The position numbers and the translations under genes are program-made. Source: Scilla litardierei (lineage: Eukaryota > Streptophyta > Magnoliopsida > Asparagales > Asparagaceae). Taken from it: 64,000 nucleotides of DNA. The notes beneath the pieces are model-generated. The model did not search any database, was not told the DNA's origin, and was given only the letters and a program-made list of their open reading frames with translations. How positions within the stretch are numbered: position 1 is the first letter of the stretch; each line of letters opens with the position of its first letter. Below, piece by piece: positions 48,155-50,759 of this stretch. The stretch spans positions 605,005,659 through 605,069,658 of the forward strand of contig CM061142.1 of the NCBI GenBank assembly GCA_030789695.1. Direction: 5' to 3'.

Positions 48155-48226
48155 CTGCATGATTCACGTTACATCACTATCCAAACTAGGAAAAGGAAAT
48201 AAAACGGAGAGTAAAAAAAACTTTAC
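48155..48226 (-). other. Probable intron 2 of element E (inside integrase)
   Basis: 72 bp starting GTAAAG after a GAG codon and ending CATGCAG. It is T-rich and holds a TGA stop in frame. In related elements the segment is absent: LA-x-x-Y-x-x-E-(I/V)-V-R-L-H-G is continuous. Removal joins RRYME to EVVRLHGVP with exactly that spacing, phase 0. Confidence 0.75.
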
Positions 48227-50646
48227 CTCCATATATCTCCTCGCTAGCGCCTCAGTGGGCTGTCCCACTCGGAACAGAATAAAGTGCGCAGATTTGGTCA
48301 ATCGATCTACGATCACCCAAATCGCGTCATTCTGCTTCGGACTCCGAGGTAGTCCAGTCACGAAATCCATAGTGATGTGTTGCCACTTCCACTCCGGAAT
48401 AGGAAGCGGTTGTAGCAACCCGGCCGTACGCTGATGCTCCGCCTTCACTTGTTGGCAAACCAAGCACTTGGCTACACTCCGAGCCACACTCCTCTTCATA
48501 CCATGCCACCAATAATTCAGACGAAGATCCTGGTACATCTTGGTGCCACCAGGATGCACAGAATACGGCGAACTGTGTGCCTCCACCATCAGCTCCTCTC
48601 TGATATCCCCAGCTGGCACACATAACCTGGCTCCGAACCTCAGCGAGCCATCCTCATGAATCAAAAATTCAGTCCGCAGACCGGCTTCCACCTGCTCCCG
48701 AATCCTCACCAGCTTCGGATCCTCAGCCTGGCCAGCCTTAATCCGATCCACGATCGTCGACTGTACCTGCATGTACATCAACGACGAAGCCTCCCCAGGA
48801 AGAACAATCTCCACACCAGACTCGCAAAAATCCTGCTGCAATCTCCACTGCGAGGTCAAAATCATCACCGCCGGAAGCCTACTCAAAGCATCTGGAACCA
48901 CATTCACCTTGCCAGGGTGAAACTGCAAATCAATATCATAATCCGCCATAAGCTCCAACCATCGACACTGTCGCATGTTGAGCTCCTTCTGAGTGAAAAT
49001 GTACTTCAAGCTTTTGTGATCGGTGAAAATCTTCACTTTCTCACTCAGCAAGAAGTGCCTCCAAATCTTAAGAGCAAACACAACGGCAGCCAACTCCAAA
49101 TCATGCGTCGGGTAATTCTTCTCATGAACCTTAAGCTGACGAGACGCATACGCCACAACGTGCCCGTGCTGATGCAACACACAACCGAGACCCTTGCCAG
49201 AAGCATCGCAAAAGATCTAAAATCCACCGCTGCGATCAGGCACGACAAGAATAGGGGCAGTCATCAACCTCTCCTTCAGAACACCAAAAGCACCCTCACA
49301 ATCACCCGACCAAATAAAAGCAACATCCTTCCGCGTCAACCTGGTCATCGGCTCAGCAATACGAGAAAAGTCCTTAATGAATCGCCGATAGTAACCAGCA
49401 AGTCCAAGGAAACTCCGAATCTCAGACGCCGACGACGGAACAGGCCACTCCCTGATGGCCCGAATCTTCTCGGGATCCACTGAAATACCATCTCCAGTCA
49501 CCACATGCCCGAGAAAAGCAACTCTATCCAGCCAAAACTCGCACTTCGAAAACTTAGCATACAAACGATGCTTCCTCAAAATCTCCAACACCGTCCTTAA
49601 GTGCGAGGCATGCTCTTCCTCCGACTTCGAATAGATCAGAATGTCGTCAATAAAGATAACGACAAACTTATCCAAAAAGTCGTAGAAAATCAGGTTCATC
49701 AGATTCATGAAAACTGCGGGCGCGTTAGTTACGCCGAAAGGCATAACCACGAACTTATAGTGTCCATACTTCGTCCTGAACGCTGTCTTCGGAACATCTC
49801 CCTTCTTCACCTTCAACTGATGGTAACCACTCCTCAGATCCAATTTTGAAAACACCCTCGAACCTCCAAGCTGATCAAAAATATCATCGATGCGAGGCAA
49901 CTGGTATTTATTCTTAATGGTCACCGCATTCAACTCCCGATAGTCCACGCACATGCGACGCGAACCATCCTTCTTCTTCACCAACAACACCGGTGCTCCC
50001 CACGGAGACACGCTAGGATTAATATAACCCTTCTGCAAAAGCTCATCCAACTGCTTCCGCAACTCCTCCAATTCTGCAGGTGCCATACGATACGGCGCCT
50101 TCGAAATCGGCTGCGCACCTGGAACAAGATCGATAGAAAATTCCAAAGCTCGATCAGGTGGCAAACCAGACATCTCCTCGGGGAAGACGTCGCCAAAATC
50201 TCGCACCACAGCTGGCCTCTCCAGCTCCATCTGCATAGCCACAGCCTCCACCGGCCTGGCCCGAAATCTGACAGGACCAAGCGAACTGCTACCACGACTG
50301 AACTCAAATACTGGATGTCCAGGAATCGCGAACACCACCTTCTTTCTCCGACAGTCGATCGTAGCATAGAAGCTCGCAAGCCAGTCCATCCCAAGAACTG
50401 CATCATAGTTGATGATGTCGTGGACAATGAAATCAGCACAAAGCTCACGTCCACAAACCACCAACGGGCAAGAATTGCACCCACGATGCACCGAGACTAC
50501 ACCGTTCCCTGTGATGATATTCCAACTCTTAGGAAGAGAGGACGTCGACAAGGAATGCTTCTCCACGAAGCTCTGGGCCAAAATGCACATCGAGGCACCA
50601 GAGTCAAAGAGGACTCGTGCAGGAAACATGCAAACCAAAACCACAC
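48227..50646 (-). CDS. pol: E Gag-Pol exon 2: protease, RT, RNase H, integrase N-terminal part
   Basis: 2,420 nt. Protease active site LFDSGAS (about 50610) and flap-end YDAVLGMDWL. RT has KKKDGSRRMCVDYRELN, LDLRSGYHQ, and FIDDILIYS in place of the common YVDD/YIDD. RNase H has CDASGKGLG, LELAAVVFAL, FTDHKSLKY and PDALSR. The integrase HHCC zinc region is at about 48570-48430 (CLVCQQVK), with the first catalytic Asp in ITMDFVTGLP. One lesion: an amber TAG at 49217-49219 just before RNase H, in the same frame on both sides. The true start is the Gag ATG at 51891, not an internal ATG. Confidence 0.92.
49217..49219 (-). other. In-frame TAG stop between RT and RNase H of element E
   Basis: The reading frame is identical before (…SGGF) and after (IFCDASGKG). 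Only this codon prevents one open frame through exon 2. Confidence 0.9.
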
Positions 50647-50759
50647 CTAACAAGCAATTAACAATCAAATCCTAGTCTAGCAAACAATCATGAGCAAGCA
50701 ACCAATATAATCAAAAATCAACCTAACTAAGGAAGATAAATAGCTAGAATGAGCGTTAC
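50647..50759 (-). other. Probable intron 1 of element E (Gag/protease junction)
   Basis: 113 bp starting GTAACG after GCAG and ending in a T-rich tract and TTGTTAG. Without removal the frame changes and stops at 50677. With removal DEVIAG joins VVLVCMFPARVLFDSGAS in frame (phase 1), matching the usual VI-x-G start of the gypsy protease. Element A has an intron at the same place. Confidence 0.78.

Follow-up and report, generated by a model that had tools for sequence, protein, structure and literature searches.

Two putative spliceosomal introns in the gag-pol of a Tekay-like retrotransposon family of Scilla litardierei, retained at thousands of sites and absent to the base from others

Introns of a retroelement are expected to vanish on copying through RNA; can a family of such elements keep two of them? 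The question is raised by a long terminal repeat (LTR) retrotransposon on the minus strand of a 64,000-nucleotide stretch of Scilla litardierei DNA (contig CM061142.1, positions 605,005,659 to 605,069,658 of the forward strand; this whole stretch is the window, and positions below refer to it), whose Gag-Pol reading is interrupted by two short segments (Table 1). An earlier note on this DNA had proposed that the element splices its RNA. Taken as a whole, the observations are best explained if the two segments are spliceosomal introns in a chromodomain Ty3/gypsy family of high copy number (Tekay-like, a clade name that is the earlier note's label and is kept as such), copied mostly in unspliced form, and we regard this as very probable because the GT..AG ends are conserved, the segments are poor in guanine plus cytosine (GC) and U-rich, their lengths drift and exact absences occur naturally. 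Splicing itself we infer from the genomic copies, where the segments are kept at thousands of sites beside base-exact empty ones.

The coordinates, lengths and GT..AG ends given in the earlier note held, as did the location of the segments at the Gag/protease junction and within integrase; besides, both are low in GC (about 33%, against an average of 51% for the span). The span 51891-47252 measures 4,640 nt, and subtracting 185 leaves 4,455, or 3 x 1,485, so that the note's sum of 1,485 codons was arithmetically right. Its claim that the frame is whole after removal of both segments was not, as three more in-frame stops begin at 51420, 51072 and 49219, outside both segments. No other copy covering those positions has a stop there (0 of 8, 0 of 66 and 0 of 68, respectively), and they are therefore private decay of the window copy, which is dead. 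Segment 2 had been said to hold a stop; in fact, each of the three frames of either segment has at least one. A reading of the segments as coding sequence was rejected for these stops and for the drift in length. The span contains 1,694 stretches 60-130 bp long with GT..AG ends; nine of them combine a GC content of 0.345 or less with T above 0.45, and all nine lie at these two sites, which exceeds chance expectation for GC-poor, T-rich stretches of this kind.

Copies were searched in the 3.68-Gb host genome (G000), where a protein search gave 88 scored copies, the window's included, from 105,545 loose candidates; all 88 could be typed for the first segment and 86 for the second, whose site lies outside L068 and for which L083 gave no flank match. 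Segment 1 was present in 88 of 88 copies (95-114 bp), a figure biased by a protein query that started 8 residues within it. Segment 2, which lay outside the query, was present in 78 of 86 copies (70-74 bp) and absent to the base from 8. GT..AG ends were found in every segment compared, 68 of 68 and 61 of 61 for segments 1 and 2 in a first batch and 20 of 20 and 17 of 17 in further copies. The coding stretch between the segments is exactly 2,420 bp long in 62 of 67 copies, while the segments themselves change in length by single bases, and its diversity at codon positions 1, 2 and 3 (0.018, 0.012 and 0.055) is as would be expected after selection on the protein. Diversity in segment 1 was 0.032, with free change of length; for segment 2, the 0.059 obtained was set aside, being too high because its T run is misaligned. 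The segments drift as noncoding sequence.

The whole genome was then counted with patterns of exact flanks and a variable gap, which count flank matches rather than elements and give lower bounds in repeats. For segment 2, 6,678 sites were filled (gap 60-90) and 1,619 empty (gap 0-30), so that 19.5% were without the segment, and the gap was 0 in all 100 of the empty sites listed. For segment 1, whose pattern is narrower and limited to one subfamily, 972 sites were filled (gap 95-120) and a single one was empty (gap 0-30), again with a gap of 0. Backward controls gave 0 for all four patterns. Within the 88 best copies, which belong to that narrower kind, segment 2 is missing from 8 of the 86 typed, still far more often than segment 1 from the pattern sites (1 of 973); a Fisher value of 2e-84 was given no weight, as it ignores both the relatedness of copies and the different sets that the two patterns sample. 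The one copy without segment 1, L069, is also exactly without segment 2 and stands between LTR ends with a 5-bp target duplication, CTCAT. A copy without segment 2, L006, is likewise LTR-flanked (target duplication GCTTG). Both look like integrated complementary DNAs (cDNAs), and L069 like the fossil cDNA of a doubly spliced RNA. The possibility of a third intron, in the 5' leader, was dismissed because the gaps of L069 in that region are small (14 gap positions in 865 columns). Among the ten segment-2-less copies that come first in genome order, segment 1 could be scored in nine and is kept in every one of these (111-113 bp, region identity 79-95%); the tenth had no match at segment 1. The search for copies lacking or keeping the segments, which the earlier note had proposed for related genomes, was thus made in the host genome, and it found both kinds, with segment 1 absent from one copy only. 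The proposed splicing is supported by the base-exact absences (8 of 86 copies, 1,619 pattern sites and one LTR-flanked copy without either segment), and it would be partial, as the note had also held, because thousands of copies keep the segments.

Relatives add to this picture. A divergent gag-only relative within the window (2766-19495, minus strand; LTRs 99.1% identical, a gag-like region, no pol match and another LTR element nested at 7863-15333) has a stretch resembling segment 1 (Table 1), and the aligned segment-1 introns have in common GTAA, TCTAG, TGCTTG and, near the 3' end, a TTTGAT run, whose location fits a branch site. Among 120 listed foreign integrase relatives, 15 end near the segment-2 site. 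The frame of one, P0129 (72% identity), stops 7 residues past the exact segment-2 site, and that of P0241 (Gag, 50% identity, the best of 4 matches) 9 residues past the segment-1 site; both look like frames running into an intron. No relative was found in the viral contigs scanned, and the scan of prokaryote contigs gave one distant contig (L071, 40% identity), continuous over the segment-2 site.

In a tree of 67 copies the absence of segment 2 takes five changes, at least three of them forced by supported branches; with ten more segment-2-less copies it takes nine, again at least three forced, in a tree with one row (L125) on a very long branch. Three pairs of sisters (L027 and L065, L116 and L122, L120 and L124) are both without the segment, which suggests that segment-2-less copies multiply. 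Base +6 of exon 3 is C in 4 of 6 segment-2-less copies and in 1 of 61 others, 60 of which have T; this silent-looking C is carried by the segment-2-less L006, L027, L031, L065 and L070. Segment 2 could have been lost a single time, via spliced RNA; template switching between RNAs packaged together could then have carried the empty site into other copies, in which case the number of empty sites would say little on the rate of loss. The C shared by four of the six and L070 fits such a history, and so do the left flanks of the six, which are of several types, whereas L050, L067 and L087 have other bases at +6 and the tree forces at least three changes unless recombination is allowed; we think this a serious possibility that falls somewhat short of an even chance.

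Less probable, and on balance unlikely, is that intron 2 was gained, the filled copies descending from one founder and the empty ones from lineages that never had it; the segment would still be an intron, but most absences would then owe nothing to spliced RNA. The more divergent subfamilies L119, L121 and L123, which have no segment 2 and which midpoint rooting places outside the main group, would fit a gain, as would the near uniformity of filled copies at +6. That root, however, is disturbed by the long row L125, the segment-2-less copies are scattered among filled ones in both trees, their closest relatives on both sides mostly have the segment, and an intron apparently occupies this site in the more distant P0129 as well. 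That the segments are decayed spacers or chance inserts, with Pol made by frameshifting or read-through and nothing spliced, would agree with the decay of the window copy and with Gag and Pol lying in different frames, as is common in retroelements, but it is very improbable given stops in every frame of both segments, freely drifting lengths and segments present in hundreds to thousands of copies and exactly absent from others.

Several points weigh against reading the two segments as introns spliced from the RNA of this family. P0129 and P0241 may stop where they do because the contig ends there or through chance decay. The segment-2-less copies are in part a shared haplotype, which leaves the number of independent losses unsure, and a single segment-1-less copy was found, with a pattern confined to one subfamily. 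Microhomology of 3-4 bp at each site would, moreover, permit an exact deletion once, though hardly at both sites of one copy, nor repeatedly at one site.

If the segments are introns, a scheme for the element can be proposed. Its genomic RNA would mostly be reverse-copied unspliced, and new insertions would retain the introns. Because segment 1 ends the frame, unspliced RNA would give only Gag, with a 26-residue tail; removal of intron 1 would be needed for any Gag-Pol product, and that of intron 2 also for a whole integrase with its chromodomain-like end. Occasionally, a spliced RNA would be reverse transcribed and integrated, leaving a copy without one or both introns to the base. Intron 1 probably switches Gag to Gag-Pol, by analogy with Ogre, and splicing may control the levels of Gag, Pol and genome, and the Gag:Pol ratio, as the earlier note had suggested. 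Copies without intron 1 are nearly lacking and copies without intron 2 plentiful, a pattern suggesting selection to retain intron 1 and none to retain intron 2, which looks dispensable. The scarcity would also follow if intron 1 were spliced less often, or if RNA lacking it were packaged less well. A broader proposal extends this to an entire Tekay sublineage occurring in more than one plant, with intron 1 as a splicing switch under selection: a copy born without that intron would be bound to make Gag-Pol, have no free Gag and fail to multiply (1 empty against 972 filled), while copies without intron 2 would multiply well (1,619 against 6,678). We hold this tentatively, at just under even chances, because the segment-1 pattern represents a single subfamily and each pattern draws on a set of its own.

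Retroelement introns as such are already known. The statement that Ty3/gypsy Gag-Pol normally has no introns has a known exception, Ogre of pea and Medicago, described in the excerpts of PMC6317226 compared here as a member of the Tat lineage of non-chromovirus Ty3/gypsy elements with an intron between Gag-protease and reverse transcriptase (RT)-ribonuclease H (RNase H)-integrase. An intron-dependent switch from Gag to Gag-Pol, reported there for Ogre, is what we propose for the window element. On neither of the Ogre traits, lack of a chromodomain and an intron between those two frames, do the two agree: the window element has a chromodomain-like C-terminus (a weak match), its first intron lies between Gag and protease and a second within integrase, and natural intron-less copies are documented for it. 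In EVADE, BARE-1 and the sunflower elements Tyran and Varan, splicing yields a shortened Gag RNA, accompanied in the sunflower elements by early termination (excerpts of PMC12786077 and PMC7730604). Splicing would set the supply of Gag product from one element there as here, with the difference that in the window element Gag would be the sole product of unspliced RNA and Pol would require splicing. Excerpts from the nine texts listed below also name a gap between two frames in Bianca, Cer1 of C. elegans and, in a reference title, spliced envelope-class elements. With Tekay/Del chromoviruses the element shares long LTRs and the order Gag-protease-RT-RNase H-integrase-chromodomain-like end; it differs at the two sites, for of the 120 foreign integrase relatives listed, 90 continue over the segment-2 site with no residue added, and the segment-1 site is read through by others on the lists, such as P0024 and P0108. 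The excerpts seen of nine open-licence PMC texts (PMC6317226, PMC12786077, PMC3605345, PMC7730604, PMC2864245, PMC11963269, PMC9289625, PMC6875170 and PMC2206039; subscription literature lay outside this scope) report no intron in a Tekay gag-pol.

Against the background of these excerpts, what differs is the sites of the introns, the second one in integrase and the natural empty copies. Filled and empty copies side by side allow an estimate of how frequently spliced RNA gets copied, and they raise the question whether the Gag:Pol balance of elements otherwise described as single-frame depends on intron 1. We have high confidence that both segments are introns; the role is proposed from the copies. 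Were intron 1 a selected switch, the genome would be a natural experiment separating a required from a dispensable retroelement intron. There is also a warning for annotation, as intron-bearing elements look frameshifted and dead to automatic reading.

Table 1. Features of the window element and of a relative in the same window
Feature	Positions	Strand	Length	Remarks
Segment 1 (putative intron 1)	50759-50647	-	113 bp	Phase 1; GTAACG..TTGTTAG; GC 0.327; Gag/protease junction
Segment 2 (putative intron 2)	48226-48155	-	72 bp	Phase 0; GTAAAG..CATGCAG; GC 0.333; inside integrase
Exon 1 (predicted)	50760..51891	-		Gag to protease junction; Pfam Retrotrans_gag and zinc knuckle (searched in pieces); in-frame stops beginning at 51420 and 51072
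Exon 2 (predicted)	48227..50646	-		Protease, RT, RNase H, first part of integrase; Pfam pieces; in-frame stop beginning at 49219
Exon 3 (predicted)	47252..48154	-		Remaining integrase, SH3-like domain, chromodomain-like end, stop; Pfam SH3_Tf2-1; Chromo and rve under curated cut-offs
5' LTR	52035..54437	-	2,403 bp	99.0% identity to other LTR (24 mismatches); TG..CA ends
3' LTR	44803..47205	-	2,403 bp	From LTR comparison
Segment-1-like stretch	16283..16400	-	118 bp	In divergent gag-only relative; 3' border shifted

The phases in Table 1 come from frame arithmetic on the three coding pieces taken separately. Searched piecewise, the element exceeds the Pfam cut-offs for Gag, zinc knuckle, protease, RT, RNase H, the integrase zinc-binding domain and the SH3-like domain; the integrase core (rve) and Chromo (E 1.6e-4, 21.9 bits against a cut-off of 25.1) fall below. 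It follows the chromovirus domain order from Gag to integrase, with a C-terminal chromodomain only weakly matched, and the named relatives from the protein search come almost all from flowering plants. The window copy has the target duplication ATCAT. At a rate of 1.3e-8 per site and year, its LTR-LTR divergence of 0.0101 would place the insertion roughly 0.4 million years ago.

The insertion target was apparently an older copia-type element, whose RT-like frames lie on either side of the window element (44283-44525 and 54442-55059). The stretch that follows the 5' LTR (51975-52034, GGTTTTGTTGGTGGCCCATGCAGG) is nearly common to the gag-only relative, at 17069, and no transfer RNA to compare with the primer-binding region was found within the window. 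Each LTR holds tandem units with TAGTCGGTC (46516-46934 and 53748-54166), spaced 113-116 bp apart. Elsewhere in the genome, matches recur about every 7.15 kb (G000:C2:118962224, 118969374 and 118976524) or 7.26 kb (G000:C1:94434205, 94441468 and 94448719), and these are likely tandem LTR-internal-LTR arrays because the spacing nearly equals the combined length of an LTR and the internal region (7,232 bp in the window element). Six further matches spaced about 58-72 kb apart, at G000:C2:109060224-109380835, suggest a larger tandem duplication.
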